In this document: positions 2,349-40,647 of the stretch, piece by piece
How the letters are laid out: every line of letters begins with the position of its first letter
Numbering within the stretch: position 1 is the stretch's first letter
Assembly (NCBI RefSeq): GCF_036669915.1
Contig: NC_089317.1
Location: forward strand, 7,797,911 to 7,861,910
Origin: Pocillopora verrucosa
Lineage: Eukaryota > Cnidaria > Anthozoa > Scleractinia > Pocilloporidae
Length of the DNA: 64,000 nucleotides
Reading direction: 5' to 3'
The notes under the pieces: generated by a model
Told to the model about the DNA's origin: nothing
Database searches by the model: none
What the model saw: the letters and a program-made list of their open reading frames with translations, nothing else
Program-made: the position numbers and the translations under genes

Positions 2349-5300
2349 CAAATCTCCTGGTCTTTGCTTTGTGGGTTGTCAAAAATGGTAATTGGATTGG
2401 CTCTGATAGGTCCACCAACGGATGGAACGGCTCCAGAGATACGACGAGCGCGAGGATTCTGTAATGAGTCATTATTAACAATATATTGCGGATAATATGA
2501 TACCAGACTGTATTCGTATAAGGGATGCCCCACCCATCTCCAAGAGGTGGATGATCGGGGAGGTGGGGGGGGGGGGGGCCGAGATTTTGGTTGAGTCAGG
2601 ATAAAATTTACCTGATACCCGCATAAGGCTCTGTATTCTTATGATTCCCCTGACTGGCAGTTAATTTGCAATCAATTTCCTATAGCCCCTTCCCCCTCCC
2701 CCCTCGGACGGATCAACATGTTGGATCCTTAACATCTATACTGTATGACATTTTACCCCATTCGGCTCCTCTTTTTCTTCCAGCGCATTCTCATGGTACG
2801 ATACTACAGGGTAAGAGCTGCCCAATTTATTTGATCCTCTGGACAAACTCATTACGTCCAACCTGAAAAGAAACATCCAAATGACTTGAACTACTCGCTC
2901 TTGAATGAAAATGTAAACAAGCAGAAGTGATATGTTGGTGATAAAAGATCCTTGTTAGGCAAACCTCACTTAGATGATTATGGCTGAGAATCCTCTGTGT
3001 GAAAAATGTGTAATGAGTAACAGTTTTGATCAACCTGAAACCAATGAGTGGATAACACTCGGTGTGGCACAAACGTCCCCAGTGTCTTCTGTCATGTTCA
3101 CGTGACTGAGATTATATTAAATATACTCAAAAAGCGGTTGCAAGGGGGAATAAATCACAGGAATCTATTACATTTCTATATGTTCATATATGATCAGACT
3201 GAGTTCAACCATCTTCTTTTAACAGGAAAAACAAGTTTTAGGTTTAAGCTTTTGACATGATTTATTAATTGAAAACTAGTTACCTTTTCTGGACCTTGCT
3301 CAGCTTACTAGCCAGACATACAATGACAATGCACTGGATGAAAAAGAAGAAGCAAACTGCTATGACACCAGCAATGATCACTGAAAGGGAAGAATAACAT
3401 TCAATTTACTATCAATGTCAAATTGCAAAACGTTATAGTACACTGGAGCTGCTACATGTGCCTCGCAATTCTACACGAAGTTTTTTCCTGTGTTCGTCGG
3501 TGTCAATGGAGGTGTGGTCGTTAAACCCATCAACGTAGCTGTAAAGTTGCGTTTCACGGAATGTACTCCCAGGCTACCTGACGAATTTGGCCTGGGTTAC
3601 GTATTGCTTTGGTCAGTACGTAATTTACAAGCCTTAAGGAGCTAATTGTTGCTCGCAAAAAGCGGCCACAAAAGCCACAATAGCCTATACTGCTCTATGA
3701 TTTCCCTTTAGTGAACCGAAATGTTGGATCATTTTATCCTCCAAACTTTTCTTAGAGGGGGAGTTTATAAAACCTTTATTAATAGGTAAATGGCACATGT
3801 AAGTTAAGCTAACCTGGATTGGACTGAAATGTTAAATGACTTTATCTTTCAAACTGTTTTTAGAGTGGGAGTAAATGACTTTATTAATAGGCAGATGGCA
3901 TATGTACGTTAAGCTAACCTTCATCTTTGTGATGTAAAAATACTGCCATATATAAATTTAATAATGTAACGACATGCAATTCTTTGTTTTACCTTTTCAC
4001 TACTTCATTCATTTATCAGTTTGAGATAATGAACAAAATGGTAGGCCTATTCTTAAACAGGAGATATCAAATACCATGTTTACTTCATTTATCTATCGAC
4101 CTGAAACCTACCATGCAATGCTTGGTGTAATTTCTATGCCACTGAGTAGACTCTGAGCATGCGTATTGACATAGAAGGGTAATTTAGTATTGTCAACTGA
4201 GTTGATAACATAAATTGGTCACCGTAAAGTGTTTTAAAAGACACGGAAGACCACCAGATTATGGTAGTCGGTTAATAATTTGTGGGAAATATGCCTCCGA
4301 GCAATCGATATAATTAGATGCAATGGTAAACTTACGTATTTCGTTTAGTTTGTTACAGCATATTATTGAATCGGTGCAGTCTGCTGCGCCTGAAAGAAAC
4401 ATATATATTTTGAGTCGACATGATTCATTGCACAATGCAGCACATTGCAGTATTTTAGTATTAATCATAAAAATTACGATTTCCTCGATTGTAATTGGTC
4501 TAAAAAAGCTCCTATTTTCCTCTAAGTCACCTACCAAGTTACCATTGAACAGTTTGTTTGCGGAAGTTCAATAAGCCAATCAAATTCAAAGTTGTAGTTT
4601 AAATCAACAAATCACAACCTTGGTTCAATCACCATAGAAACAGTGTACATTTACACCTCTTTTGTCAGTCCTTTAATTCAAATATTCCCTTTCTTTCATT
4701 ACTTGGCAATTCTTCTTTTCTCGGAAATTGTAATCTTTATGATTAAAAGGTAATAAGTCGTCCAATTCGGTCTTTAATCATACTCGTGATAAACAAATTG
4801 GACTCTAGCGGCGCGGTCGTTCGATTTTTGTCATCACTCGCATGATTACAGACCGAGTTGGACTCCACTCAGTCCTATTACCATGACATATGACTGAAAT
4901 ATAACTCATTTGAGTTTCTAACACTAGTGATTTCCCTTAAAAGTTATCAAGCAGCTTGTGTAGGAATCCTGCAATCTCGTCTTGACTTTTATTTCAGTAA
5001 TTTCTCTAACAAATCAAATGTTTCGCAACATTGTTGTTGGATTCTAATTTTCGGCAAGGTTTCGGGAAAAAACTCCTAAAGGAATGTAAATTTAAGAGCA
5101 ACACGCATTTTGAATATTTGGGAGTAGTGATGTTCGATTGTTTGCATAGATTTGCATAGCCTTTCGTAGAAAAACAAAACAATGAAAACACCTACACATT
5201 TTCGAAACTCTACAGGAAATTTCTAAACGACAGCTTGATATGAACGACGAAGGTCATTCATTAAATTAATTTTTTGTGCTTGAAACATATCTTTGTTTGT

Positions 5301-5693
5301 TTATGCAGGTTTAACGGTTTTTCATCTCTTGTCAATGGATCAGGTTAGTAACCTTCGACAAAATTTAGAATCTTTTCGCGAAGAGTCGTAGAATCGTTGG
5401 CACGGACAAATTATTTCAAAATGGCGCATCTATCAATTGCGTGTGAACTGCACATTTAACTCCTGTACTCGAAGGACGTTTGCTCAGAATATAAAATAAG
5501 CTTACATGTATCATCACTTCATGTCTGTGAAAGAAGATCCACGAGACAGTTAATTTTACCCTTTTTTCCTTTCTTTAAACATATTCGGCTCTAAATATTT
5601 TATTAAACAGTTAACTTACGTACCTTCGCTTAAAATACTGAGCAGCAAAATAACAAAGAGACAAGCCCTGTTGTTCATCTGTACCGCAAACAT
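2349..5693 (-). CDS. Gene D: small type I membrane protein with cysteine-bearing mini-ectodomain (3' end incomplete)
   Basis: Four minus-strand exons were assembled from splice signals. 5624-5693 is a signal peptide exon starting at ATG (hydrophobic CLFVILLLSIL) and ending in phase 1. 4336-4389 is 54 nt coding GAADCTDSIICCNKLNEI. 3284-3380 is the transmembrane exon, IIAGVIAVCFFFFIQCIVIV followed by a Lys-rich stop-transfer. 2349-2507 is the tail exon, with an alternative upstream acceptor near 2549, ending at a consensus donor GGTAAGT in phase 2. All junctions agree in phase. The mature ectodomain would be about 18 residues with a C-x5-CC pattern, unlike the cysteine-free acidic stretches of its paralogues. 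A tail exon after 2349 must exist but is not fixed. Function is unknown; topology is inferred from the signal peptide and one TM segment. Confidence 0.65.
2565..2578 (+). repeat. G14 homopolymer
   Basis: Fourteen consecutive G on the plus strand. On the transcribed minus strand this is a C tract lying just upstream of the gene D tail-exon acceptors, so it may act as polypyrimidine tract. It is also prone to slippage and assembly error. Confidence 0.9.
4173..4247 (-). repeat. Fragment of the GGTGGCCAATTTA foldback family
   Basis: The phrase AGGGTAATTTAGTATTGTCA, followed by AACTGAGTTGATAAC and TTGGTCACCGTAAA, matches in reverse orientation the elements near 16.7, 27.7 and 48.5 kb. It is a truncated copy in the intron between the TM and ectodomain exons of gene D. 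Confidence 0.7.
4430..4890 (-). repeat. Interspersed element related to 51.12-51.56 kb
   Basis: Reverse-complement blocks match the plus-strand stretch 51120-51560 in the same order: a GACCGAATTGGACGAC block, a TTACAATTTCCG-GAAAAGAAGAA block, and ACCAAT-ACAATCGAGGAAA. The outer end carries a short imperfect inverted repeat (AATTCGGTCTxTAATCA / TGATTACAGACCGAxTTGG). It sits in intron 1 of gene D, just upstream of the mini-ectodomain exon. It is probably a non-autonomous DNA transposon. Confidence 0.7.
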
Positions 5694-8227
5694 TTCTCTG
5701 CGCCTGACTGTTCGCTAAAGTTTCTCTAAATTTCAAAGAAAAAGAACTTATATCATAGATTAGTTGTGTTCAAAGTTTGTAGTCACTGAACCTTTGCAGG
5801 CAGATTTGAATAATATCGCATTGGAATATGCAAGTTTTGCCACAGAATAGAGTCATCAGACCCAGCAAGACACTTGAAGCATGCATTGTGTTTTTTTTTA
5901 AGGAAACAAAGGACATCAGGGAAGCGTGGAAAAAACAAAGTGAAAACGCATAATATACCCAGTTATTGAGTTGTCTGTTCGTCATAAACAGTGATACCTC
6001 CGTGTTTGAAATCAGTAAAGGTGCTCTTAAGGACGTTTTCATCTCCGTTGATTCAAAACGAAAGATTGATTGCTTCTGTACAAAAATGAAATGAAAAATA
6101 AAAAAAAAGAAATCTAGAGAGGCGAACTACCTTGACGTGGATTTGACGTTGATAGTGAAGTTTTCAACTAATCTTGTTGATTATTTTCAATTAACGTGTT
6201 CGTTCCAGCGTTACGTTTTGGCTGTTTTACAAAGCCAAAATAATCTAATTCACATGGCCAAATTTAAATTTGTAAACGATTCACCCGGTCATCGGTTAGT
6301 TTTCTGTGGTGTAATTTTAATTCAAAGGGGGTGAAAGTATCGTATCTATTTCCTTGCTGGTGATCGAGTCATAACGATGGATCAACTGTGAAGTTAGATA
6401 ACTCACAACAACTTTCGCTGTTTTTGCAAGACAGCCTTTACGAAATAATTGAGATTGCAGTGCCAAAGTAGGATCAGTGCCTTTGTCTGAAATTATGATT
6501 TCATTTTTATGTCATGTTAAAACATGTTTGATGCAACTTACTGTTTCCTGATTATTTCTTGAAACCTCTTTGGTTCTACCTTTGCTATGGCAACAGCCAA
6601 GCATGTCGTGAAGAGCAAATAAATGTGGACTTAATTTCTGACCAGATTTTTATCATACGTTTTATTAATTCCTAACAGACCGAGGTTATTTTTCATAATT
6701 TTTGACTGATTTATTCTAGAGTTAAAAAAATATCAGTCCTTTAGCACCTCTCGTAGAATCAGTGAACCATTTCAGATTTCTACTAAAAGACGCGTTTCGA
6801 AAGTACTAGATGAGTGGACCCGTTGTGGGGTGAAATTCTTGTCATTTTTTTTTTTATTGTTAGTTAAAATTTTTTCGCCCACGGCCTCGTTTGGTTTACC
6901 TTGAGAATAATGTTGTGACCTTGACCATGCACATTCTTTCCATAAGTTCGATACAGCTGGGCAAATTTAGTACAAGTGATGAACAAGATTTTGAGACAAC
7001 TTCTTTCAACTTTCCTCTCTCCACTTTCAAGACTAGCGGAATAAATCTCATTTTGTTTAGTTCAACAGAAGTAAACGTGTGCAGGAGATTATGTTATTAT
7101 ATATTAAGAAAATTTAGTTCTATAAATCATTTCATTCCTATCTATTTTGTTTCCAGTTAAGAGGCGAAGTAGGTTCAGATCGTGGCTCAGTTGTAATTTT
7201 GTAGAAACACCTCACTAAAGGAACGTGAATGGCCGAGGAATTCATTCCGTCAACCACACCTTCAAAGAAATGTCTGCTTAGTCGATCATAACAAAACCTT
7301 GGGCTTAATGCTAAACCTCCCGAAAAGCGTGGTTTTCTCAGCTTTTTCTCTTAAAGCTTGTGGTAACTCATAGGTTCCCGGCTTAAGCACAATGACAGAC
7401 CGTTGGCGTCATTTCCTCCTTAAAATCGCCACATTTACACCAGCATATAAGATATTTTATGCAGCCTCATGTGCTTAAAATACTGCTGTCAGTTGTTATC
7501 AAATTTGCTGATACTGAGAGCAAAGCCCTTATGATCTTAAGTTTAATCTAATTTCGCAGAATGCACCAGGCATCTATGAGTATCAGCCTAATCGCAAAGT
7601 TCTCATTTGTCGATGTTCTAAAGGGCATAACCAGCATTTTTCAGGGAGGGGAAGGTACAGTAATGAATCTCTGCTCCCCATGCATGAAACTGATTAAATC
7701 GCCTCTCCTCCTTACATATATACGGGTTTGTATTGAGGTACTTGTAAATATTAATGCTTTGTAAATTTTTCGAATTGAAACGCTTTTATGTTATTGACTT
7801 AAATGGGAAAAAAAAAAAAAAGAACGTCACAACAGTTGTTGCATGGGCACCCTAATGTTCAATATTATTAAATGTTGAACATTTGGTTTAAAAAACAATA
7901 ACGTTTCATTTTTATGACACCGATCCATTTTTCCACTAAATTTTTCGTTAGATTCAGAGCTTATTGAAATTTTTGTGATGAGTCTAATGTTATCATAGAT
8001 GTGAATGCTATTGTTACATGTATGTTGTGAAATGTTTCCACGCACAAACTGATTTCCTGGATATATTATGAATTTAACTGTGTATTAGGTGAGTTGTAAT
8101 TTCGTTACCGTTAAAGTACAGAGTTAACGTTATAATTAGAAGTAGCATGTAATTGGGAGCGGCATAGGGTAATCGAATTAATTCTGCGAGCACTGATGTA
8201 TGAAATTAGGTATTTGCAGGGCGTTTA
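5694..8227. other. Intergenic, 5' flank of gene D
   Basis: No supported exon was found on either strand in about 2.5 kb. Open frames here are short, hydrophobic or low complexity and lack flanking splice signals. The promoter of gene D should lie just above 5693 but no TATA or initiator motif stands out. Confidence 0.4.
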
Positions 8228-8658
8228 AGTGCATAGGAACCTAGCAGCATGATTGTCAAGTAAAGCCTTGTTTAATAGGATATCAGTGCCCACGAATCGT
8301 TGTAGAACGTGAGTGAGTCCTGAATCCCACACGGAATTACGTATCTGGGTTTGGATTTCCTTAGCTAATAAATGCAGCATTTTTGTAACCCTAGGATTAG
8401 AATGTAAGAGAGTAGATAGATTGCAGAACGGAACGTGTAATGCTGAATTGTCGTCAATAAAACCTGAATCAAGAGAAAGTATACAGTCCAAGATTACTGA
8501 ACTAGCGTGTGCGGAATTCTCAGCAACGCAAGTGAGAAATTCTGCCCAATCTGGCATAGTAGTGTAAATAAAGATTGCGCTTACAGAGTGTAGGTTGATA
8601 CCGTTGTTATGACATATTCTAACACATGGACTCATTAACAGTAAATTCTCCAGTTGTC
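8228..8658 (-). CDS. Unrecognised 143-codon open exon (terminal exon or gene fragment)
   Basis: On the minus strand an acceptor TTTCAG (8659-8664) is followed by an uninterrupted frame to a TAA near 8226-8230. It starts Q-L-E-N-L-L and includes CVRICHNNGINLHSV, a Leu-rich middle (NLSTLLHSNPRVTKMLHLLA) and HAARFLCT at the end. Composition is that of a soluble helical protein, reminiscent of armadillo/HEAT-type domains, but I recognise no family. It lies between genes D and C on the same strand and does not fit their exon pattern. It could be the last exon of an unseen gene, a retrocopied or transduplicated fragment, or chance. Confidence 0.35.
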
Positions 8659-8935
8659 TGAAATGTTACACTAAATCTTATACGTTACAGTGGTATTGAT
8701 AAAGAGAATGGTTCCAGAGCACAGTTGATACCAAAATTATCATGTAATTCAGTCAATGAAAATTTTTACATTGAGACCCCTTATCTCCAATGTAACGCTT
8801 CATCGGATGGATTACCGAGCGGTGTCCATACTTTAATTTGGGATGATCAGCTGCTTTGTTCATCGAGTCATTGGGACTACATCTAGCCTACTACATCGTG
8901 AATAATCTGGTTGACAATACTAGCATCCAAGATGG

Positions 8936-10706
8936 TTACGTCGTGTAAATATTTGGCGGACTTGAACGATCCTCACCTACCGCCATCTCATATGAAGGTA
9001 GGAAAGGGAATCTGTTTATACACTGTAATTCAGAATCCGGTTCTTCTGACTGATGTCTAAATGAAATAGAGGTTCTAAACCAAAAAATATATAAATTAAT
9101 AAATAAAAAAAACAAATAATTGTCAGTAAGTGGTCTAAAACGGGTCTAGATATGCACTATTACGGATTTAATTTAGATATGAACATCAAGCTAAACACAT
9201 TATTTAGCTTATTCATATGTCTTTGAAACTCTAAATGGGTTATAGGGAAGGAGTGGTAAGTAAAATTTATTATATCGCTGGCAGTTTCCCTGGGCAATAT
9301 GACATGTGTCGTAAATGACATTTCACTCGCTCTTTCACCTGCCTCCACAGATGGGCCCATCTTGCCCGCTCGGAATTGCTCCCTTTGATCCCGTTCAAGA
9401 AAAACAAATACCTGTAACGGACTTACTAGTTTCGTAATTTTTGTAAAATGTCGGCAATGGATTCATAAAAAGGAGCAGAAGACAGTCAAACCTTTGTGGG
9501 TTTATTGTGTTACAAACACAATTGGCTTTCTTTCCCAGCCCTCAAATTAAACAACTCAATCTTGGTTCTTAATAAAGCGGAAACTTTCAGCTTTATAATA
9601 AATCCTTTATTGACCAAGCTTGTTAAGTCAAGATGGCTGGATATTGCCTTCATTCTATTTTTGCGTTTTCATGGAGCGAAACGATGTCGAAGTCCATAAA
9701 ATGCAAAAAAGGAGCTCGGCCAATATCCAGTCATCTTGACCTGTTGACCTCACATTGGGTCAATAACGCCTACACGACAATCAAGCTGAATTTTTGGTGA
9801 TTTATACCAATTCTTGTTCTCGCATCGATACATAGCTTGATTATAAGCCATTAAAACTCAAGAGAGAAGATGTCATCCTCCCCCACTACGTTGTCTTCTA
9901 CGCGAAAAAGAAGCGCGTAGAAGATCGTGTGGGTCAGGCAGGAAGAGGAAATTGCGCAGCCGTTTATCTGTCAATTGCTACTTCCGTTTGTCTCTCATTT
10001 GCTCTTCCACCTGCCTCCAAAGACAGAAGGCCTAAAACATGCAAAGATTCCCAATAATGACAGAATCCTGTTTTGGGAACGGTATGAGGACTTTCAGTTC
10101 TTCACGGATTCCCTTAATTTAGTTAGAGATTTCGGTCACTTCTCTGGACCCTGAGTCAGTTTTATACTTACCCCAAAGCCAATTTTTGGTTTCTCGTACC
10201 TCTGATGACTAAAACGTGTTCCTACTCAATTTAAGAAAGTTTTCTACCACTCAGTTTCAGACCCTTACTCAATGTTCTTCAATTGACGTACAGACCAGGA
10301 GAAAGAGACTTACCCATTTGCTCTGTCCCAAACTTTGCAGCATAAAGTCAACACTAAGATAGTATACTGAATGGCAAGGATGGCTCCCATTACGATTAAC
10401 ACCGTGATAGCAACTGAAAATAGAACGATAAGAAAGAATGCAAAGGTTAATTAGAGAAGTAGAGTCATGTTAAGTGACGGCTAGCGCAGCTTAAAACTGA
10501 AATTTCCGCATGTTACATCCTTGCAATGAAGCGGCATTCGAAGGAGTCTGGAAGTGACCTTTACACTCGTCTTCCCTACGTCGCACCATTGTAAGCCAAA
10601 TAAGGAGATTTTAGAAACAGATTAGATCTACCATAGAACTGGCACAAAACTTACGTGCATCATGGCCTTGCTCGTCACCAGTATCATCCAAACTACCACC
10701 ATGACT
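8936..10706 (-). CDS. Gene C: small type I membrane protein, paralogue of gene B (5' end not found)
   Basis: Three minus-strand exons. 10655-10706 is an acidic ectodomain exon (HGGSLDDTGDEQGHDA) ending at donor GTAAGT in phase 1. 10314-10413 is the TM exon (AITVLIVMGAILAIQYTILV, then CCKVWDRAN), running phase 1 to 2. 8936-9056 is the tail exon with stop TAA at 8936-8938 (FPFLPSYEMAVGEDRSSPPN). The TM core shares LAIQ-x-x-x-x-x and CK-x-WD with gene B, and FPFLPSYEMA in the tail is identical. The tail is only about 40 residues against 109 in B. The acceptor of the ectodomain exon (10706 or 10704) does not match the phase-1 signal-peptide exons of the paralogues, and no signal peptide exon was found, so the gene may be 5'-incomplete, divergent or decayed. 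Confidence 0.6.
9590..9790. repeat. Imperfect inverted-repeat element
   Basis: TCAAGATGGCTGGATATTG (about 9628-9646) recurs inverted as CAATATCCAGTCATCTTGA (about 9722-9740), so the segment can fold back. It lies in the intron between the TM and tail exons of gene C. It is probably a MITE-like element. Confidence 0.6.
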
Positions 10707-11123: not shown

Positions 11124-11142
11124 CTAACCCTAACCCTAAGCA
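11124..11142 (-). repeat. Short interstitial telomere-type tract (CCCTAA)3
   Basis: Three contiguous CCCTAA units, the complement of the TTAGGG metazoan telomere repeat. The tract is too short to be a chromosome end. Confidence 0.8.
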
Positions 11143-14666: not shown

Positions 14667-14735
14667 GGCCAATTTGCATTATCAGCTCAGTTGATTAAAC
14701 CAACTTGAATTATCTTGTGATGTTCCCCATCGCCA

Positions 14736-14769
<34 letters not shown>

Positions 14770-19448: not shown

Positions 19449-20480
19449 TTATTTTGCAGCTGGTGGTACGTTCATTTCGTTTTCTGGTGAAACCCTAACT
19501 TCCCTGCCACAAGTAAACGAACACGTAATGAAACAAAACATGTTCCTTAATGCCATGTGGAATCTTGAACTAGATGCAATTAGTATGACAGGATTAACTG
19601 CAGCGCTAATAGATGGAAATATGTAATAAAACAAAGCTAAAGATAGTAAGCACGAATCTTTGGTATACAATGAGGGTAAAACCATTTTGAGAATAAGAAA
19701 AACACACAGTGGAGTCCAACATAGAAAAAATGTTATGACGATTGATATGAAGACTTTCATGATAACCTGATTCTGTTGTCTGTTGCGGATTGCTACGTTT
19801 TGTTGCACTTCATCTCCTGTAGGCCGTGTTTGTCTCAAACATTTCATGATTTTGCAATAAAGTATAGGTATAACTTGTAACGGAACGCAGTAAAATACTA
19901 CAAATCCCATGGCGTAGAATATGCGACGTTGATCTTCGCCCCAGTTGAACCTACAAAATTTGTGACGATTTTCTAAGACTATTTTGGAAAACCAGACGTA
20001 AGGAAAAGCACCGGAGACTGAAACGATCCAAGTGGATAGCAATAATATGGCACGGCTTCGACCAGTTATCCTCGTGGCTTGGAAAGGACGGACAATGGCG
20101 ATGAATCTGTCCACGACGATCAACACGAGACTGATGACTGACACAGCCTGGGAAATGGATCTTGAATAGATACAAAACTTGCATACAGGTGTAGCAATGG
20201 AGTCACTAATCGTATGCTTTCCTGATTGCATTCCTTCAATTGCATATAGCGGCCAGTTCGTCATAGCGGATAGCAGATCAGAAATAGCCATGTTCACAAT
20301 GAAATAGTTTGTGCTTGTTCTTAGCGTAACGTCTTTCAGGAAAGCAACTGTCACAAGGGTATTTCCGATGAATGCCCAAATACTGATGAGGGAAACTGTT
20401 GCTGTGAGCAACCCAGAAACAACATATGGACACGAAGATTTATCATTGAAAACCTCATCACTTGAGTTGTTCATGTCCAC
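19449..20480 (-). CDS. Class A (rhodopsin-like) GPCR, single exon
   Basis: A 343-residue intronless receptor with a complete seven-helix layout. Landmarks: TM1 Asn40 (GN), TM2 Asp68, TM3 Cys100 able to pair with Cys176 in the second extracellular loop, DRF at 124-126 in place of DRY, TM4 Trp151, TM5 Pro200, CWTP at 254-257, and NPVIL at 296-300 in place of NPxxY. Asn-Ser-Ser near the N-terminus is a glycosylation sequon. Conserved CWxP, the disulphide pair and DR indicate a G-protein-coupling receptor of the peptide/amine-like sort; the ligand cannot be read from sequence. Start: the ATG near codon 1 gives the expected short N-terminus. An AATAAA overlaps the stop codon (plus-strand 19448-19453). 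It lies between genes C and B and is unrelated to the 52-59 kb receptors beyond the fold. Confidence 0.92.
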   Translation of the reverse strand: MDMNNSSDEVFNDKSSCPYVVSGLLTATVSLISIWAFIGNTLVTVAFLKDVTLRTSTNYFIVNMAISDLLSAMTNWPLYAIEGMQSGKHTISDSIATPVCKFCIYSRSISQAVSVISLVLIVVDRFIAIVRPFQATRITGRSRAILLLSTWIVSVSGAFPYVWFSKIVLENRHKFCRFNWGEDQRRIFYAMGFVVFYCVPLQVIPILYCKIMKCLRQTRPTGDEVQQNVAIRNRQQNQVIMKVFISIVITFFLCWTPLCVFLILKMVLPSLYTKDSCLLSLALFYYIFPSISAAVNPVILIASSSRFHMALRNMFCFITCSFTCGREVRVSPENEMNVPPAAK

Positions 20481-24392: not shown

Positions 24393-27300
24393 TTACAAGT
24401 TAACGGTTTCCTCCACAGGCGCGATAGCGACTGATTCCTCGATTTCTGAAACTACTCCATCATCTAGGCTGCTTCTGCTTCTCGGTGAGTTTGCAACACA
24501 ATGATTTGTCTCTGACTCATTCCTTTGATTTTCTTGGAATGCAGTCGTACCTGGACTAGCTATCCCCAATATTACACCATCGTCAATAGTAGTAACAACT
24601 GTGTCGCTGCTAGCAATACTCTGCTGACTCGTACGCACTTCATTCATCGCCATCTCATATGAAGGCAAGAATGGAAATTCGTTTGTCAGCTGTGATTCAG
24701 GATCCTCAGCAACTGACCGAGATCTGAAAAAACAGGAGGAAAATAAACTTAGCAGTTGCTTGGCAATCTTTTAAAAGCAGAATGAAAAACTGCCTTTAAC
24801 AAGCTTCCAAAGGCAACCATTACCATGTGAAATGAAAAAGGAGAAAAGTTTTTAGAGAAACTTTTGTGCTGCGTCAGTGGTGGTATCATAAGATATTTAG
24901 GTTCTACCAACTAGGTTGGTAAGCTAAATTGGCTACCGTAAAAAAACCGTAAAAACGAGAAATAAGAACTCACTTAAACACCGCATCCCATGCTTTGCAT
25001 GCAAAAATAAAGAAGACAATCAGCTGAATGGCTAAAACAACTCCATATACTATGACGATCGTCAAACCACCTGTAAATTAAAAAAAAATAAAGAAATGAG
25101 TTTTCCTCAGTACGTCGATATGGAATGCATTACTGGAAATATTAAACATGAGACTAAACAAAGTAGCTTTAAAAGGCGCTTGAAAAAAGAAAACTGACGT
25201 CATACAGTTATATCGAGCAGTAAATAGTTTTATTATAACTATTACGGAACTGTTAATATTTTTATTTTACTTTATTACCGACATACTCACAGATTGTTAT
25301 GTCGTAGACTGAGATAAAATTTTTGATATTAATGTTTTTGCTTTCCTCTTTTGGTTATTTTTTTATTCGTGGCAATACCCGCAAAACGGCGATACTTACA
25401 ATACTGTAATGAGCTAAGCGTATTGGACCACATTAATAAAGTTACCTACTTACTTTTACTTACACCAGATTATTTAGACAAAAAGAGACTGTGGAGAATC
25501 TCAAGAGACTCTTTAATCAACATCCTTGGCTTTTCCATTTACTCATCAATATAAAATAAAAATAATTTTCAAAGAATTCTCTGGTGCTTACTAAATCTCT
25601 TAGCAGTGGTAATTTCATTCTACCCTAGTTGAATGTGGACTCCCCACCCACTCCTCCCCCTCCAACGGTTCTTGATCTCCAACACTGACCAAGAGTAATG
25701 GACCAGTCATTATTTATCGTCTGGGTAAGCGGGTGGGGGAGATTTTTGAGGATCACATGGTTATCAGGGGTAACGGAAGGTGATCAGTCGTCGCCAACTT
25801 AATACGAAGGGGAACTATAGATATTGACTGTTTATTAACTGCCAATGAGGAGGATCCTAAGAATCCTCCAACTCCCACCCCGAACCTCCTCCCCGCTCCA
25901 TCGGCGAAAAATAGTGACCACTCCCTAAACGAGAAGCGACAATAAACAAATAAACACATGGCACAAAATGTATTTAGGAGAAGATCGCGACTTACTAGCT
26001 TCATCGTTAGTTCCCTCGTCTTGGTCTGAGTGACCAATATAGTCTAGAAATCGCAATAAGAAAGAGAAGAAAAAAGGAACAGATGTATCATTGCATATTA
26101 CTGATGTGATGTTTTCATAGTAAGTTCTAAGGAAATAGCAACCAAATTAAAAAGTTATTTAAAGAAAGTTATCCGTTTGCCTCACGTCAGTGCAACGAAG
26201 ATACATTTTAGTCTCCCTTATGATACGAACCCAGGCCTTCGGATTTAAAAGCCCAATCTCTACCACTTAGATAGATAGATAGTTTATTATCAAGAACCTT
26301 GCAGCCACAGGCTGAATTACGTTTGATTTACAATAAAATATATACTACAAAAGAACACAGTAGTCAAAGTGAACCAGGCTAGCTAGATGAGCCGGAGACA
26401 GGCCCTAATTCTATGCTCAATTTTGATCGGTTCTTACCCATGATCTATGGGAGGACAGACGCATAGATGGCAACATAAATGACGACGTTTTGTTTTTTAT
26501 CATGATTATAAAACAAATAGATCCCATGTCACCGTAGGTCTGTAAAGCTCTCTTAGAGTAATCTGTAATCTCTTATTAAACATGCGCACGGCAACATAGA
26601 ATGTATTTGTTAATTTTTGGCGCTTCGGCTTGAGCGTTTCTTCCCCTCCCCTCCCCACCCCCTAAACCTTTATAACAAAGTCGCCCTGTTTCAGATCTAA
26701 AGGCCGCAGCTCGAGACTAGCTTTTAAAAACGAAACCTCAAAGAAGTCGCACTTTTCTTGCGAGGGGACATCGAGTAGGTCATTTCAATACCTTGTATCT
26801 AATTCTGACGAAAGGCTAACCATCGGAGCGTCATTTTTAGAAACTCTTGAAGGTGGCCAATTTAAATTATCACCTTAGCTGATAAAACTAAATTATTCCT
26901 CCAGCGACGTGGCACCTCCCGTTTATTCATTTACTTGATTCTGTTCCCTTGGCTTGACCGTCTATCAGCGTTCCTATAAGCGGGCATTTGGTACTCTAAC
27001 CGTAGCCCTTGGCGCCGAGAATTCTTCGGTACTCACGTCCATGTCATTGTGTTCCGTTTGTTGACTTAAACCTTAAATGTTAATCTCCCGATCTTAATTT
27101 TCTAACCCCCTCCCTTATAAAACCCTCTAAACGAAGGAAGAGGGCACTTTAAAAGGCGGAAATCTGTCTAGGAAAAGGATCGGAGATGTAAATTCACTGA
27201 ATAATCAGAGAGATGTGTTCGACGATTTTTTTTAACGATGCATAAAACGCGTTGAGAGGCAAGACATGATGCATAAAACGTGACATTCACGAAGAACTAA

Positions 27301-28586
27301 GAGACCAACTAGCATGCATGAATGGATATCATCTCATCTCATGGATGATTGTACAAAGACAATAAATTATTTTTTTTGTACAATCCACCATATGCGAGAG
27401 CTTGGTAGTTGTTATTTTAGCCCGTATGAACCTGGTCGTGTAACTTATTTCAACATTGCTTCGTGGATGGAATATAAACTTACGTCGGTGGCATCCCAAC
27501 AAAATAAAAATGAAAAAAAGGAAGAAAGAGAGAGATAGAGAGCGAGAGAGAGAGAGAGAGAGAGAGAGAAAAATAAAGAGAAGAAAGAATAAACAGGCCC
27601 TGATCGACTCCGCCGTGAAATAAGTATTATAGCATTATCAAAGGGTAATTTAGTATTATGAACTGAGTTGATAACGTAAATTGGCCACCGTAAGGAGTTT
27701 AAAAGTTGACTTTTCGAGCACTAGCCCTTTCGTCAGAGCGATGAATGAAGGGCTAACGCTCGAAACGTCAGCTTTTAAACTCTTTACGGTGGCCAATTTA
27801 AGATATCAACTCAGTTCATAGTACTAAATTACACTGTTATAATCTTCCACCGACGTAGCACCACAGTTTCTTCAGTGGGGACATCGAGTAGGTCATATTA
27901 GTACCTAATATCTAATTCTGACGAAGGATTAACTTCATGATTAGCATAATTAAAGCTTGACAGCACGCTAGATATAGAGGTTGCTTTCTTTCTGTACGTC
28001 CCCAGAGGATAAACGTGTTGTTCAAATTTGCCGTTTGTACAGCATGTTTACGTAAAAACAAAAGAGCTGCTCGAAGCTGGTGTTTCTCGGATCCTCCTTA
28101 TTTTAACGCAAAAACGTGACCTTCCAGTGTCGATTTGTTGCTTATCAAGATGATCGATATGTAGGGTACACTTCGATTATAACGAAATCTAATTTAAGTC
28201 TTAAAAATGAAAAGGTTCAAGAACGTTTAAAGATCAAGTGAATATCATCAGCACAGAGACAGCTTAGGCTTGATTCTCGTAATAAAAAATTTACGGTCTT
28301 GAAATGAAATGCCCAGTTTAAAATCTGAAATTTGAAAAGTAGACGCCACATTCAAAGGGATTTTACTCAATCCAGTTCAGACTGAGTAAAAACCAAAGTT
28401 TGTGGTTTAAGACCATTTCTTTTATGGCCTACGCGTAATATTATTGAAAAGAAAAACTTCCGTTCTCGTTTAACTATAAACAAAGTGTTTGTTCTGAAAT
28501 GCGCACGACGACTTACCTCCATGGACAGCAGAAGAAAATAAAGCCAACAGCAAGAACGACTCGTAGAGGTAGCCCCTTACACCCAT
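24393..28586 (-). CDS. Gene B: small type I membrane protein with acidic mini-ectodomain
   Basis: Four minus-strand exons giving 546 nt and 181 residues. 28517-28586 is the signal peptide exon (ATG at 28586, hydrophobic SFLLLALFSSAVHG), ending in phase 1 at GTAAGT. 25996-26043 is 48 nt coding DYIGHSDQDEGTNDEA. 24974-25070 is the TM exon (residues about 42-64, TIVIVYGVVLAIQLIVFFIF, then CKAWD), phase 1 to 2. 24393-24723 is the tail with stop at 24393-24395. Tail residues 88-96 read FPFLPSYEM, as in gene C, followed by a Ser/Thr/Glu-rich region ending EETVNL. The mature ectodomain is about 17 residues, six of them acidic. No domain-sized open frame is seen in the 2.5-kb first intron. Function unknown; a membrane adaptor or co-receptor role is inference. 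Confidence 0.75.
26269..26284 (+). repeat. AGAT microsatellite
   Basis: Short (AGAT)n tract in intron 1 of gene B. Confidence 0.7.
26845..26920 (+). repeat. GGTGGCCAATTTA family, fragment
   Basis: AAGGTGGCCAATTTAAATTA followed by a degenerate TCACCTTAGCTGATAAAACT and CGACGTGGCACC. It is a diverged copy in intron 1 of gene B. Confidence 0.65.
27525..27590 (+). repeat. GA-rich microsatellite
   Basis: Uninterrupted (GA)n core flanked by GAAAGAGAGA and AAATAAAGAGAAG runs, in intron 1 of gene B. Confidence 0.9.
27640..27875. mobile_element. Foldback element of the GGTGGCCAATTTA family, both arms present
   Basis: The left arm reads GGGTAATTTAGTATTATGAA, CTGAGTTGATAAC, ATTGGCCACCGTAA. The right arm reads the complement in reverse order (TTTACGGTGGCCAATTTAAG, ATCAACTCAGTTCATAGTAC, TAAATTACACTGTTATA). 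The centre includes GGGCTAACGCTCGAAACGTC. The right end continues into CCACCGACGTAGCACCACAG. This is the most complete hairpin copy in the window and shows the family is a foldback/MITE-type transposon without its own protein. Confidence 0.8.
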
Positions 28587-31382: not shown

Positions 31383-34300
31383 TTAGCGTTTGACGTCACT
31401 TTCCACCAGATCCATTCCAGATTGCATGCTGGTACTTTGGTACGCCTTGTTATGAAAAGAACTGAGAGTCTTTGTGTCTTTCTCGCTTTCCTTGGTGCCT
31501 TTTTGCTCTTTTTCTGTTCCTGGTGGAGCGCTTGTTTTTCCCATATTGTTGTTCTGGCGTTCACTTGACTTGAGGTCGTCGATGGAGTCATGAACTCCGT
31601 TGCTTACGTCGTTGAGCTGTGTGAGGGATTATACATAAGTCATGACATGATCCTCACGGGTAATCGCAACTCAAAAAATGCAGAAAACCGAATTCTCAGG
31701 GAAATGCAAGTTTTATGGATCTAACCTGTCTGTATCAGACAACGGCAAGGCAATGCCACCAAATGAAAAGCTACGAATGTACTTGATAGGGTAAAGGCAA
31801 ATCGTGGCGGATTTTGGTGGAACAAGTATGTGATAATGAGTTTAGCACTCAAGCAAGATAAGCTTTTTGGCTTAAACCTGTTCTTCAGTCTCAGTAAACG
31901 GTTAAGTACTGATAGCAAGAGGGTCTCAATGGCCGGGGGTAAACCGTTAGCTGTAAAATGGCCAAAATTTTAAACATCAGCCGTGAAAGCCATCACCCTA
32001 TTGAGACCCTGTACAGAATGAATGGCTACCGACAAAGCTACATCACGGGGCACATTCTGATTTTGAAATTATTGATTCCTTAAAACAATGTTGACCTTGG
32101 TAACGAGAGAAAAACGTAAAAAACATGACATAATTGACTTCCAAGGTTCCGAATAGATAGTGACGGTATCCAGATCATCACTGACAACTTACCGAATTCA
32201 ACAGCGGAAACATGTACGTTAAAAAAAACTACGAAATATTAAATCTACTCTAACGTTTTGCAATACAGCAAAGAAGGTAGAGGATTGTTCATAAAAAAAA
32301 GCTAGTCAAAGTTCAGTAAACCTCTTTCCTGACCTTAAGCTGCTCGAATTTGGCTGGTGACTTCTCCTCAGCGTGCTCGCTGGACCGGTACATGCTCTGA
32401 AACTTCTCCTCCGTTATTTCTAGATCATATCCTCTTCCACTACTAGAGAAAAGAAAGGAAAGAAAACGTTACGCCTCGAAAGGTGATCTTAAGTTTCAAT
32501 TTAGTCAACGAAAGTACAGATAAATCCTAAGGATGAGGGTGCTAACTATAATCAAATCGTTGACAAAACAACAATAACAACAACACCAGAATAAGAGAGC
32601 TGTGATTATAACGAATTTACTTTTCAAAAAGGAAAATAGTAAATAAATTGGAAATTTTCTGGTATGAAATCTGTATACGATTCTATTTCATTTATATTTA
32701 GACGAAATATTTTATTATTCATTTATTCTTAACCACTTATCTTTTTTTTCATCGTCTTTCGGAAAACTTTTAAGATTCTTACCTTGTTGTTCGGGATTTT
32801 CGGTTAGGGTAACGGTAGGGGAGTAATTATACTGGTCTATAACTTGTAAATAGAATGTAATCAGTGTCACAGTAAAGTTGGATATTTCGCTTGATGATCT
32901 AAATATTTGCCTTAAGGTCTGGAGTACTCACCCATATGTTAGTCTTGATCGTCTGATCAACATCAAAGACATCACGACGCTGATCACAAAAAATAAGCCA
33001 CACACCACCAAGAACACAATACTCATCATCAACAAATTTTCTAAGAAACAAAAGTTAATGGACAGAACAAAATGATAACGGCTTTGTTACATTCCTCGAA
33101 GGGCTCACAATGCACCAGCTAATGCAATTCTTGTAACTACAAAGATCTAAACGCAAATTCATCAACAGGCTTGTGGCATTTATTCGCTGGTAGTTTTACT
33201 AGTATATTGAACTTTATTCCCCAGTTTGTAATTTATCTTGACCTCACCACTTGTTTGTTTTACAAGAGAATAAATTAATGATTGTCAAAGGGCTTAATCC
33301 AATCTTCATTTATTTGTTTTAGAATCTTAATTGTCTTAATTTTCTCTCTCTTTGCAGTTTCTATTGCCAATAGCAAAACGAAAAGCTGCAGCAATAGCAA
33401 CAGCATCATCAATCACAGCGACCAGCTCTGCAACATGGCTTACTTTGTTTCGAGTGCAAAGCTTTAGTGCATCATCAAAAAAAATTCCTTCAAAACCTTT
33501 AGCTGTAGGTCTTTGGGAATACTTTGAAGCTAATCGTTGTTAGCTGTAATTTTTCCCTTCACAACCTTTAGCTGTAGGTCTTTGGGACTACTTTGAAGCT
33601 AACTGTTGTTAGCTGTAATTTTTCCCTTTTCTATGTAAAGAGAGAGTCAATGATCTGCAACTCACCATCCTCTCCCTTTCCAACGATATACGTATTTTCT
33701 GCAAGAAAAAAAACTAATATAAGAAAAGACTTCACAAGCCACTTTGTAACTCGATCGATGGCTAAGGAGCAGAGGAAAATGAAGTTTATTTTTTCTAATT
33801 TAAGTAACTCAGAGTGAATCGTTTAGACGAATTAAATCATTGATCCTTTTGCGTCGTCGCACGTAAGTGATTAAAAGTCGATGACAATTTTTTTTTGTAA
33901 CAGTAATTGCTACAAACGTCAACAGAAACAAACTAAAGTGGGATCACTATCAGTATCTGGGCAACTGCCCACCTTCTCCTCCCCTAACTCAACAACAGTC
34001 AACTGATAACAATTTAGGGTTAATGTTGGGTTAGGGGCCCGGGGGTAGGTGGCCAGTTGCCCAGATACTGATATTGATCCCAAAAGGGTATTTTCCTTCT
34101 ATGTTTAGCTTCCAAATTTTACTCTAGCAAGGAGACAGGACTTCAAGTACATTTGATTTACAGGTCCAATTGAAAAGTGCTCTGGAAGTTGAGTCTACAA
34201 GAAGAGTATAATCAAACTATCAAAAGCAATTAGTCATATATAGTTTCGTATTACCAATTTCATATCACACGAACAACTTGTATCCATTTATTTTTGAAAA

Positions 34301-34861
34301 TAATTGCAAAGATTATCTGCCATTGTTAATTACCGGCACAGCAAGTTTCTGTTAGAAATTTTGGGGAAACGGGAAAAGCATCACAGCGTGAGCAAAGGAT
34401 GTATAAGACATGTATAAAGCGGAACTCAGTGTTCGTAGAAAACGAGATATTGTGTCTTGTTAACAACTGAAGGTGGAAATGCTTTCACTATAAAGTAAAA
34501 GTATTGTTGTTCTTGGAAGAAATTTCTGATGTATCTAGACGAAAAACATGTCATTACAAGTCTATCCAGAATGATTAATTTCAGGGAAATGCATGACCGA
34601 GTTGATAATTATCGTGGCAAATCCATTAATATTATCCGTTCCCGAGAAAATGCGGGAAGGGTAAATTTGCAAGGATTCTGAGTGAGAATCACTAGCAAAC
34701 CATTGAGATCAGTGTGATCCTGTAATAAACGCCTTAGTTCCTAGAGATAAGTCATCCATATAATTGAACCAAAAGGAAAAATGACTACCTGCAGCTGCGG
34801 ATGACGCGAACGAAAAGGCTACCACGAGGTACAACCCAGTAAATTTGAAGTGGGTCCACAT
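31383..34861 (-). CDS. Gene A: small type I membrane protein with 33-nt ectodomain exon and FxNxAY tail
   Basis: Five minus-strand exons giving 558 nt and 185 residues. 34789-34861 is the signal peptide exon (WTHFKFTGLYLVVAFSFASS), ending in phase 1. 33666-33698 is 33 nt coding ENTYIVGKGED. 32932-33040 is the TM exon (about 39-64, MMSIVFLVVCGLFFVISVVM), phase 1 to 2. 32334-32442 is tail 1, acceptor 32442 or the in-frame alternative 32439, phase 0. 31383-31616 is tail 2, with TAA at 31383-31385. All junctions are GT-AG and in phase. Tail residues 162-167 are FHNKAY, a phi-x-N-x-x-Y pattern of the kind bound by PTB domains; the rest is Lys/Glu/Ser-rich. It is the closest relative of gene E, which lies divergently 1.44 kb away. 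No homologue is recognised. Confidence 0.78.
31914..32013. repeat. Short element with terminal inverted repeats (GAGGGTCTCAAT)
   Basis: It starts GAGGGTCTCAATGG and ends CCTATTGAGACCCT, giving inverted termini of about 11 bp around roughly 80 bp. It lies in the last intron of gene A. MITE-like. Confidence 0.65.
33496..33628. repeat. 69-bp tandem duplication
   Basis: CCTTTAGCTGTAGGTCTTTG begins at 33496 and again at 33565, and the two copies are nearly identical over about 64 bp. It lies in intron 2 of gene A, about 40 bp downstream of the 33-nt exon. Confidence 0.85.
33948..34084. mobile_element. MITE-like element, copy 1
   Basis: It opens GGGATCACTATCAGTATCTG, GGCAACTGCCCACC and closes GGTAGGTGGCCAGTTGCCCA, GATACTGATATTGATCCC, forming long terminal inverted repeats around a core with CAACAACAGTCAACTGATAA and TTAGGGTTAATGTTGGGTTA. 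A second copy is at 38126-38286. It lies in intron 1 of gene A. Confidence 0.85.
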
Positions 34862-36305: not shown

Positions 36306-39300
36306 ATGATGAGGAGAACATCGTCGGGAATCATTTGGCTTTGTTTGCTGAGCAGTGTTTGGTTGCCATTTACCAAAGGAGGTGAGTATTATTCTAATTT
36401 TTCTTCTTTTCCATTAAGATCTTAAGTTTAATCGGAAGCAATCTCTCGAAGCTATTTGAACTGAGCGTTCAAATGCCACCTTTAATTGTCAAGTTTACAT
36501 GCCTGTTGTATAAGAAGCGCAATTTCTTCGCCGTATCATAAATCACTCAGGATTCAGTCCCTTCAATAAAGATAAAAGTTCAGTGGATTTAAATTCAATT
36601 TGCTTGCAAAACACAATCCTTTTAATCGAATACATCTTTATTTCTTGTGGCCATCGCTGAGATTTTTTTTGTGCGTTGAACCATTACACGAATAATCTAG
36701 AAGCCTTCTTCAAAATTCTTGCGACTTCAAACTTACATCCTATGACCAATTCGAAGAATAAACTTTTCACGTCGCTTTAGTCAGCATTAACAAAAGCAGA
36801 AAGACGAAATTTTTTGCAGTTTGACATTATCATTTTGGATATTTAGTAAAATGCTGATAGGATGAACAAGCGCAGGAAATTTGTTCGATCATTTCCTAAT
36901 TATAAAGGAAAAGCCCGGAGCAGTGCCTTTGAAACCTTACTCCACATTTATCTGAACAATAAAATGAATTATGAAAAAGAAACCTTGAACTCTGAAGTGA
37001 GATGACTTATATCAGACTTTCGGCATAGCGGTACTTGTCATAAGGTGTACAGAAGTAGGTGTGCAGAAATACTGCTAGTTAAAGCAAAATGATTTGGCAC
37101 ATAAATAAGTTTTGCTTGAGTGTTCTGCCAGCGCACACAGTGTTGAATAATTTCTTCTAATTGTAGCTTTCCCTGATGTAATGATGTTTCTGCGCGTTGT
37201 TATATTTTGTTAATTTACGTTAATTTTTTGTACCTAAAATTGCATATTGTTCAACAGGCTGATCATGATTAGAGAATATTTGTTGATCTGTCTAGTCAAC
37301 TCGTTATGAGACTTTTCTTTATTAATTTTTCCTCGAAAAACTGTTATTCGTGCGAATTAACCAATCTTCATCCTGGAAATTAAGGGCAATGCATAATTTT
37401 CATCGTCTCATTGAGTTAGAAGACTGCTATTATACCATATCTTGACAACTATTTAGTAGTGAAACAATATCAACAACAAATACTACAGTTTATTACAATG
37501 TACGGAGATCTGTCCTTACCCAAAAAGAACTGGTTACTTCAATGAGCTAAATCTCTTCCAAGAGAGGAACCTTCTTAATGAACTCTGATACACTGATGCG
37601 TTCAAAACAGGATCTTTGGCACTCGAATATCATAATTGGCATTTAAGGCAACAAAACTTCTGTGTTTGGAATTCAAAGAGTGAATAACGGTATCCTCGAT
37701 CTGGATAAATCTCTATCTGGTGGATAGCACAATATTTTCATTAACGTTTGTTAACTGGATAGCGATTTATCCGTTGGATTGTGTTATTCGCCTTTAGAGA
37801 AACTGAGCCCTTGGCTCTATGTGAAAAAAACAAATTACAACATTTTACAGCTCTACATCGTCACGAAGAAGACAAGAAATTCTTCTTTGTTGAACCTTCT
37901 TATGGGTAAATGAGCCTGTTTCCTTTCTCAATGAAATTGTTTTTGTCCAGCATGATTATCAAAATATCAACTAAAAGGTATCTTCGCGTTATGTGTTGGA
38001 GCCATTCTTTTGAGAGCTTGAGTTTTAATTTTTCTTTTTATTTCCTCGCAGCATCAGAATACATCATAAACGAGAAATACGATGGTATGTACAAACAATG
38101 ATTCATATGATTTGTTAAAAATAGCGGGATCACTGTCAGTGGCTGAGCAACTGCTTACCTACCCCTTCCCAAGGTTCTTCTCATGTTACCCTCCCTTAAT
38201 CCAACAACAGTCGATAGCAATTTAGGGTTAACGTTGGGTTAGGGGAGGGGTAGGTGGGCAGATTCTCAGATACTGACATTGATCTAAATAACGTGACATA
38301 TAGTTCTCATCATTGCTGTGGCTATGAAACTTGCTTTTGATGTGTTAGCATTATGTAAGATTCCTATGTGGAAAATAGGGTAGCATTTTGAAAGTAGCAA
38401 CTATACTATTTAGCACTCACCAATAGACATAATGATAGAGTGTATATGTAGCTTCACCACTTGGAAATATGTCATGAGTAGTTTCAACGATCTACCGGAT
38501 TAGACACTGAAACACTGCTCAGAAATTGAACGCCAATTTTTCTACTTCATTTATTACTTTCAGCTATTCTTGTGGACTGTTCCATTGCATTCCTTGTTTT
38601 GGCCATAATTTTTTTGGTTCTTCTGCTCATTACATCAGTGTTCATTTACAGGAGGATGGACGATGGCGACGAGAGGTAGATAACATAGTTATTTTAAAGA
38701 GAAATATTTAAAAACTTGCATCACCAGAGAGTCAGAGGGAGTATCTACATCGTTGTCGGGATTTAAAGTCAAACGAAAGTACATAAAGTGAGTCTTTGAA
38801 TATTTCAAAAAAGTCAGACCAAACAACAAAACCCAATAGAAAAACATTCTAACAAACAAATAAATGTATTTATAAATAGCTGAAGAAAGGAATAGAAAAA
38901 GAGTAAAAAAAGAAATCCAATGAAAGCCAAGAAAGTTACGTATGGTGGGGTCATACTTCCACTACGATTTCGTGTAACTTACGATGCGAAGATTGTCATT
39001 ATGAGCAGATGACATTAGTAATCATGTTTCGAAATTGGTTTGGTCTTGTCTCCAGTTCCTTGCCACAAATTTCTTTCGATGGCTCAGTTATCATTTTTAA
39101 CCTTGCTAGCCTATTTGTGAGTGTACAATTTTCCTAACATAAAGTATGTCTAATAGTACGACTTAAATCTATCTTCAACTGGACTTTTTACAAGACAATG
39201 AGATTTTATCAACTGAGTTGAGCGTTTGCTCCTCGTCAGGAAAAACGCAGAAAAAAAGTATAAATACTATTAGGGTTTTTGAATTGGCCACCGTCAGAGT

Positions 39301-40647
39301 GAATGACTCAAAAAGAAAGTTTACAAACTCTTTACGGTGGCTCATTCACATTATCAACTCAGTTGACTTTTGATTACCAACTCATGAATTTTAAAGCGAT
39401 CTTCGCAGGTATAAACACTACTTAAGCAGTAGATAAAAACCAACTCATCTTGTTATATTCCCCACCGATACAGCAGAACAAGGTCTTTAAAAAAACTTAT
39501 TCCCTTTCTTCTTTTACTTTTTAGTTTGGGGAATAATAGGTATCAGGTGTCTTATCGAGACAGTGAACCTGCAAATATCAGAGACATTACAAGTCCTTTT
39601 TATGGCCATAGCATTTACACCCGCCGTACAACAACGAATATGTACCTGCCTGGTCGCGACAATGCTTCAGTGATTGGTGTAGACGGAAAACCAGTTAAGG
39701 TACTGTTACAAAAGTAACCATACTCACTCATCTTCCATGCACACTATCCTATCATGCATTGATCAGTTATAATCAATCAGTCAATCAATCATATATATAT
39801 ACACATCCACATACCTATTTATCTATATATCTGTGTGTCTATCAATCTATAAATCTATCTTTCTATCCAAAAGACCCATCTATCTATCTATCTATAAATC
39901 TTTTAATCTATCAATCTATCAATCTCTCAATCTCTCAATCTCTCAATCTATCAATCTATCAATCTATCCATTTATCAATCTACCAATCTATCAATCTATC
40001 TATCTATCTATTTATTCATTTATTTATCCATCTAGCTATCTATCTACCCATCCATCCATGAATCCGTCCGTCCAAAAACTCATTGATCCATTCCAATATC
40101 CACTCGCTCGACTGTTTGCCTATTCGTTTTTACGCTCATCCATTCTTTTAATCATTATCTAAGTCGGCTTCCTTTCAAATTTTAATCGACATCCCATGAT
40201 TTATCCTCCTTCCTTTATTTCAGTAGATGATCTTGATTTCAGTCCGTTTGTTGTTCCATATTTACCAAAAGTTACCAGCCTTGCTCGATTTTCTTTGAAG
40301 AAGCTGTTGGGGTAACATGGCTGCCTTTTTTCGCACCAATTAAAATTGCGAGTATATAATATATATTTGTTTTATCACAGAATATGGCTTACGAAAACAA
40401 AGCAGCTGCTATGGAAATTGAAGGAAAGAGCTTCAGAGACTCTCCCCCAGCAGAAAAAGGCCAGAAGGACTCCATGATGAGCGAGAAAAGGATTGGAGCG
40501 ATGGCAACTTTTGAGAATGCTGCCTATGGCAGTGTAGAGGAGAAACAGTCAAATGAACATACCTACGAAACCATTCATAACGTTAGCACCCAACGCTATG
40601 CTACTACTCGTCTTTCGTTCCCAAAGAAAGTCACTTCAGATCTGTAA
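36306..40647 (+). CDS. Gene E: small type I membrane protein with 33-nt ectodomain exon and tyrosine-rich tail
   Basis: Five plus-strand exons giving 663 nt and 220 residues. 36306-36381 is the signal peptide exon (MMRRTSSGIIWLCLLSSVW), ending in phase 1. 38052-38084 is 33 nt coding ASEYIINEKYD. 38564-38675 is the TM exon (about 43-65, SIAFLVLAIIFLVLLLITSV), ending in phase 2 after MDDGDE. 39525-39699 is tail 1, phase 0. 40381-40647 is tail 2, stop TAA. All junctions are GT-AG. The tail carries FENAAY at 176-181 (phi-x-N-x-x-Y, PTB-like, shared with gene A), YGSV and YETI (YxxPhi), and YEN at 136-138 (SH2/Grb2-like YxN). A polyadenylation signal AATAAA is at 40674-40679. The mature ectodomain is about 17 residues, so the protein is mostly cytoplasmic tail. 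An in-frame upstream ATG at 36213 would bury the signal peptide and was not used. Function unknown. Confidence 0.8.
38126..38286. mobile_element. MITE-like element, copy 2
   Basis: Same termini and core as 33948-34084: GGGATCACTGTCAGTGGCTG at the left, GGGTAGGTGGGCAGATTCTC and AGATACTGACATTGATC at the right, core CCAACAACAGTCGATAGCAA. It lies in intron 2 of gene E, while the other copy is in intron 1 of gene A. Confidence 0.85.
39181..39500. mobile_element. Foldback family copy with SINE-like insertion
   Basis: Arms ATTGGCCACCGTCAGAGTGA and CTCTTTACGGTGGCTCATTC with ATCAACTCAGTTGAC mark the GGTGGCCAATTTA family. Inside the right arm is GCGATCTTCGCAGGTATAAA, CACTACTTAAGCAGTAG, a phrase also found in the tRNA-derived SINEs at 59.4-59.8 kb. 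The element ends about 25 bp before gene E exon 4, so it supplies most of that intron's 3' part. Confidence 0.7.
39776..40060 (+). repeat. ATCT/ATCA microsatellite array
   Basis: Long run of (ATCT)n, (ATCA)n and variant units in the last intron of gene E. It creates long open frames rich in Tyr-Leu-Ser-Ile, which are artefacts. Confidence 0.95.

Follow-up and report, generated by a model that had tools for sequence, protein, structure and literature searches.

The 64-kb window analysed here is a stretch of the Pocillopora verrucosa genome (NC_089317.1:7797911-7861910; assembly of 353.4 Mb in 52 contigs) that carries, at 2-41 kb, a cluster of five genes designated D, C, B, A and E. Four of them appear to be intact, while C would be a damaged or incompletely found gene. 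The products are predicted to be type I single-pass membrane proteins with a signal peptide, an acidic stub of 10-20 residues, one transmembrane (TM) segment and a tail without any recognised domain. Exons were reconstructed by hand, the signal exons being picked by eye, and the junctions and phases were then checked by script.

The script-checked exon chains of D, B, A and E gave complete reading frames from start codon to in-frame stop, encoding 146, 181, 189 and 219 amino acids, respectively. All four have GT..AG junctions and the same series of phases, in which the signal exon (70-73 nucleotides, nt) and the ectodomain exon (33-54 nt) end in phase 1 and the TM exon (97-112 nt) ends in phase 2. 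The TM exon is followed by one tail exon in B and by two in D, A and E, and the tails as cut measured 73 (D), 110 (B), 118 (A) and 149 (E) residues. An AATAAA sequence was found within 275 nt of each stop codon (at about 153 nt in A; for the others see Table 1). Genes A and E adjoin and point away from each other, with 1.45 kb separating their start codons. The original prediction had assigned a shared exon architecture to all five genes, without naming a family; this holds for these four and was not confirmed for C on phase, signal exon and tail. Its argument that coding lengths divisible by three speak against chance exon picking was discarded as circular, because any chain that stays in frame up to its stop codon is divisible by three.

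The stubs as cut span 12-23 residues across the five proteins (17 in B). They are net acidic, with acidic/basic residue counts of 6/0 in B, 4/1 in A, 3/1 in E and 4/1 in D; the mature D stub would comprise about 17-18 residues, because the cut still includes the end of the signal peptide. The eight signal-to-TM introns of A, B, D and E were scanned for open exons of at least 60 nt in any phase, with splice cut-offs so lenient that all 11 of the known internal exons were recovered, a generous positive control since the splice matrices had been trained on the same genes. No phase 1-1 open exon of at least 60 nt was detected in these introns. Four candidates in three places were left over, of at most 133 nt; none was phase 1 to 1, and thus none could be inserted alone in frame. 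Lowering the limit to 30 nt yielded one weak phase 1-1 candidate of 57 nt in intron 1 of B (27107-27163). Together with the exon anatomy, the intron scan supports the earlier proposal of membrane proteins with almost no ectodomain.

Gene C (8936-10706) was reconstructed in part. Its TM and tail exons are clearly homologous to those of B, and its chain did not close: the acceptor of the ectodomain exon as drawn allows entry in phase 0 or 2 and not in phase 1, and the exons found upstream were weakly signal-like, none of them convincing. The C tail has 40 residues as against 110 in B, ending after IYTT where B continues for about 70 residues. Gene C could be a copy that has been damaged, or one whose 5' part lies elsewhere.

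Homology among the five proteins was assessed over 1000 shuffles. B and C scored 15.6 standard deviations for the tails and 10.4 for the TM segments, and A and E scored 5.0 and 4.8 (p 0.002 each). No pair involving D exceeded 3 standard deviations (the best, D-A TM, reached 2.6, p 0.02), nor did any other cross-pair; in an uncorrected BLASTP restricted to signal and TM, D matched A with an E value of 0.004. Overall, B and C are 40% identical. They have all 10 residues of FPFLPSYEMA in common, the four nucleotide differences in this segment being synonymous, and their TM segments contain G-x-x-x-A followed by IQ (GVVLAIQ in B, GAILAIQ in C), a possible helix-packing motif. The A and E tails have F-x-N-x-A-Y and a YR-x-SE-x-A segment in common. 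Of the single family of five that had been proposed, the pairs B-C and A-E are therefore borne out by sequence and D is left unplaced; the only evidence for common descent of all five is gene structure, in the form of the phases, and position.

A TM-exon template (generic splice rules and a 20-residue hydropathy of at least 2.2, thresholds set knowing the genes) matched the window at five places, exactly D, C, B, A and E. Two matches, neither in a full chain, were obtained in 24 control stretches from the same genome (240 kb, 5,672 nt of it N); twenty first-order Markov resamplings, 1.28 Mb in all, gave four. When signal, ectodomain and tail exons were also required, the window still counted five, against none for the control stretches and one for the resampled sequence, the last at a hydropathy of at least 2.45; the full chain counted for C relies on other, weak exons than those drawn. 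Two scans with different splice rules were less clean. One returned the five genes and two further places in the window. The other, at hydropathy 1.9, returned ten rows, five of them elsewhere, and missed E because its donor lies outside that splice rule. The flanks (20 kb on each side) contained one template match, without a tail, and tblastn of the five proteins against them gave nothing better than an E value of 0.67. The homology described above is more independent evidence than the template scan.

Codon usage, compared with three G protein-coupled receptor (GPCR) frames, was non-discriminating (1/17 exons under 0.05). The substitution patterns are better coding evidence. Over 49 B/C codons, differences at positions 1, 2 and 3 numbered 14, 11 and 24, with proportions of nonsynonymous (pN) and synonymous (pS) differences of 0.27 vs 0.57; over 82 A/E codons they numbered 42, 31 and 53 (pN 0.45 vs pS 0.78). 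Both patterns agree with coding, and the shortage of replacement relative to silent changes between B and C means that selection probably constrained C over a large part of its past.

Pfam, which contains families of transmembrane adaptor proteins (TRAPs), gave no match to Gla or TRAP families up to an E value of 1 for any of the five proteins. All Pfam matches were sub-threshold; the strongest, of C to AJAP1/PANP (E value 0.0032, 18.2 bits vs a cut-off of 27, not seen in its homologue B) and of D to Cornichon (E value 0.0074, 17 bits vs a cut-off of 29.2), were rejected and taken as TM composition. PDB sequence searches with E and B revealed nothing meaningful, and tblastn identified no relatives of B in viral contigs and none of E in genome contigs. 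Within its own genome, B recovered only itself and the C tail exon, and E recovered itself alone; sensitivity was evidently low, because the search with E missed A, so that distant paralogues may exist. D recovered itself and one match on contig 4 (E value 0.11, internal stops), which was not accepted, and searches with B, E and D gave no accepted member outside the window. The Gla family had no match in this genome at an E value of 0.001; 14 control genomes were also matchless, so this does not establish absence. A narrow search of open-licence literature, mostly through listings, returned no named coral family of this kind.

The tails of B and C contain an LPxY motif followed by acidic and small or hydrophobic residues (LPSYEMAM and LPSYEMAV, respectively), and no PPxY was seen by eye in any of the five tails. 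A Cys lies at or near the cytoplasmic end of the TM segment in B (FACK), C (LCCK) and D, and not in A or E. Tail tyrosines number nine in E (one in a YxN), three in A, two each in D and C and one, inside LPSY, in B. Peptides of the FxNxxY-like and YxN kinds are ligands of PTB and SH2 domains. No immunoreceptor tyrosine-based activation motif (ITAM) was present in any of the five tails, nor a charged residue in any TM core; residue 4 of the E TM exon is an Asp, at the outer edge.

Because so little of each protein lies outside the membrane, ligand binding through a folded domain is unlikely and an adaptor role most likely. The explanation which we favour, while giving it about the same weight for as against, is that the five are transmembrane adaptors in which one chassis bears tails of two or three kinds, with the tails of B and C directed to WW-domain proteins and those of E, and less so of A, to tyrosine docking. 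Such adaptors would bring cytosolic proteins bound to their tails to partners in the membrane. In B, and in C if it is expressed, LPSYE would recruit WW-domain proteins, most likely ubiquitin ligases of the Nedd4 family, and could thereby send partner receptors to endosomes by ubiquitin-dependent trafficking, as Commissureless (Comm) does. The corresponding motif is GLPSYEQAV in PRRG4 and GLPSYDEAL in Drosophila Comm (PMC5578492), NEDD4, NEDD4L, YAP and TAZ bind PRRG4 mainly through LPSY (PMC3764795), and the PY motifs of Comm are required for enhancing Robo1 ubiquitination (PMC12101832). A Cys near the cytoplasmic TM end is likewise described for all Comm proteins and PRRG3/4 (PMC5578492). 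In E, and less so in A, the tail tyrosines (AYEN, FENAAY/FHNKAY, TYETI) could serve for docking once phosphorylated, or as attachment points for endocytic adaptors; among the five, E is the strongest candidate for a scaffold with docking tyrosines, and D and A are those that this reading explains least.

Several points weigh against this explanation. LPxY is short and can originate by chance. It is absent from the tails of A, D and E, so that recruitment of ligases could apply to no more than two of the five genes. The B tail has no second PY motif, where Comm and PRRG4 have two, and no Pfam family reached its cut-off for any of the five proteins. In addition, part of the literature holds the Comm-Nedd4 interaction to be dispensable for midline Robo control (PMC5578492).

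That all members are instead tyrosine-based scaffolds like the vertebrate TRAPs, with a short stub, a TM segment, a palmitoylated juxtamembrane Cys and tail tyrosines that dock SH2 proteins when phosphorylated, is doubtful yet credible enough to be weighed seriously. The layout agrees with the TRAP description in PMC4861716, E has its nine tail tyrosines with one YxN, and B, C and D have the Cys at or near the cytoplasmic TM end; however, the Cys is missing from A and E, the sole tail tyrosine of B lies inside LPSY, D and A have two and three, and no TRAP family was matched in Pfam. The absence of both an ITAM and a TM-core charge from all five proteins makes it improbable that they are short subunits of multi-chain receptors, despite the small acidic ectodomain with a long tail and the conserved G-x-x-x-A of the B and C TM segments (GVVLA, GAILA), which could pack helices. 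Co-receptors that pair in the style of DAP12/CD3-zeta are therefore not supported.

For B and C, the WW domains bound might be those of YAP/Yorkie, TAZ or MAGI, which would make these two proteins adaptors of Hippo signalling and not of ubiquitin ligases. PRRG4 LPSY is reported to bind YAP and TAZ besides NEDD4 and NEDD4L (PMC3764795); this is an inference, however, and the other LPSY single-pass protein considered, Comm, is linked to Nedd4-type ligases (PMC12101832), which leaves the Hippo connection a slender chance. Chance exon picking, or pieces of larger genes with unseen extracellular exons, would be conceivable given signal exons picked by eye, the lack of closure in C and the weak 57-nt candidate in B intron 1. 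The rarity of the template, the two homologous pairs, the synonymous bias and the lack of any phase 1-1 exon of at least 60 nt in the introns argue against it and render it most improbable.

Table 1. Exons of the five-gene cluster (positions in the window)
Feature	Position	Strand	Remarks
Gene D exon 5, end of tail, stop codon	2345..2458	-	AG acceptor, in-frame TAA, AATAAA about 148 nt downstream
Gene D exon 4, tail	2757..2862	-	phase 2 to 0, AG/GT
Gene D exon 3, TM exon	3284..3380	-	phase 1 to 2; junction check and template scan
Gene D exon 2, ectodomain exon, 54 nt	4336..4389	-	phase 1 to 1
Gene D exon 1, signal peptide	5624..5693	-	junction/phase check
Gene C tail exon, LPSYEMAV, early stop	8936..9056	-	homologous to B tail
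Gene C TM exon	10314..10413	-	phase 1 to 2; template scan
Gene C putative ectodomain exon	10655..10706	-	acceptor gives phase 0 or 2, not 1
Gene B exon 4, tail (FPFLPSYEMAM), stop codon	24393..24723	-	open over 331 nt; AATAAA about 274 nt after the stop
Gene B exon 3, TM exon, Cys at cytoplasmic end	24974..25070	-	phase 1 to 2; template scan
Gene B exon 2, acidic ectodomain exon, 48 nt	25996..26043	-	phase 1 to 1
Gene B exon 1, signal peptide	28517..28586	-	junction/phase check
Gene A exon 5, end of tail (FHNKAY), stop codon	31383..31616	-	TAA ends at 31383
Gene A exon 4, tail	32322..32442	-	GTTTAC donor weak
Gene A exon 3, TM exon	32932..33040	-	phase 1 to 2; template scan
Gene A exon 2, ectodomain exon, 33 nt	33666..33698	-	phase 1 to 1
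Gene A exon 1, signal peptide	34789..34861	-	junction/phase check
Gene E exon 1, signal peptide	36309..36381	+	junction/phase check
Gene E exon 2, ectodomain exon, 33 nt	38052..38084	+	phase 1 to 1
Gene E exon 3, TM exon	38564..38675	+	phase 1 to 2; template scan
Gene E exon 4, tyrosine-rich tail	39525..39699	+	junction/phase check
Gene E exon 5, tail with AYENKA, FENAAY, TYETI and stop	40381..40647	+	AATAAA 26 nt downstream

A palindromic core, ATCAACTSAGTTGATAA, was found in 20 strand matches with at most 3 mismatches, against 0.86 expected in the window. Its copies start at 4190, 6036 (weak), 14679, 16800, 26867, 27656, 27803, 39206, 39351, 41894 and 48575; they coincide with non-exon DNA matches among the B, C and D loci, and the element looks like a repeat of the miniature inverted-repeat transposable element type. 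A IntronA 1 (33942-33993) and E intron 2 (38233-38284) share a different short repeat, with about 85% likeness across 52 bases; none of the modelled exons includes it. Two tandem arrays were identified, AATGAGATC x 18.9 (98% match) at 45559-45728 and GAGGACG x 23.3 (96% match) at 61931-62093. Between C and B lies a single-exon rhodopsin-family GPCR frame at 19452-20477 (-) (7tm_1, E value 1.5e-41). Two further GPCR frames at 52785-54185 (-) and 57338-58903 (-) (7tm_1, E values 2.8e-21 and 2.3e-22) are similar by eye, as if by tandem duplication, the open frame of the first being without the N-terminal part seen in the second.

Taken as a whole, the cluster could be a single-locus adaptor system of the coral lineage. 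Its members would keep one chassis, made up of signal peptide, acidic stub and TM segment with fixed exon phases, and carry different tails, namely a WW ligand in B and C, a tyrosine scaffold in E and others in A and D; this broader suggestion is speculative and, in our judgement, unlikely. If true, it would provide an invertebrate counterpart of TRAPs and of Comm/PRRG4, and a Gla-free LPSYE adaptor outside bilaterians. PRRG4 has been studied in vertebrates and Comm is described as insect-only (PMC12101832); with a Gla-free cnidarian single-pass protein carrying LPSYE, one could test how old this device for receptor trafficking is and what its minimal form looks like. The genes would also be concrete candidate adaptors for animals in which many genes have no ascribed function (PMC13044578).

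DAP12, CD3-zeta and Fc receptor gamma resemble the five proteins in layout only, the ITAM and the TM-core charge being absent here. Shisa-like proteins (STMC6) are also short single-pass trafficking proteins, and the D stub has three Cys; D nevertheless lacks the lumenal C*C*CC*CC pattern given in PMC5578492, and the stubs of A, B, C and E are Cys-free. The vertebrate TRAPs include LAT, NTAL/LAT2, PAG, LAX, GAPT and SCIMP; SIT is also one. Like these, D, B, A and E have few extracellular residues, one TM segment and a long tail. Most TRAPs also have a juxtamembrane Cys for palmitoylation, and several SH2-binding tyrosine motifs in the tail; in the cluster a Cys near the TM segment occurs in B, C and D but not in A or E, and many tyrosines occur in E alone. 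Differences are the single tyrosine of the B tail, the signal exon and distinct ectodomain exon of each intact gene, and the lack of any family match.

PRRG4 has a signal peptide, one TM segment with a Cys at its cytoplasmic end, and LPSYEQAV, to be compared with LPSYEMAV in C and LPSYEMAM in B; unlike B, with its 17-residue acidic Cys-free stub and no PPxY, it has an extracellular Gla domain and a second motif, PPxY. Comm is likewise single-pass with the cytoplasmic TM-end Cys, and its GLPSYDEAL is matched with conservative changes by FLPSYEMAM in B and FLPSYEMAV in C. Comm has no signal sequence, whereas B has a signal exon; it also has a second PY motif (PPCY) before LPSY, for which B has no equivalent, and a lumenal part with weak Gla likeness (both points from PMC5578492 and PMC12101832). 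The cluster was assigned neither to the TRAPs nor to PRRG4/Comm, because the defining features of each are absent, and at most it works like them. By layout, the nearest known systems are the vertebrate TRAPs and, for B and C, the LPxY proteins PRRG4 and Commissureless.

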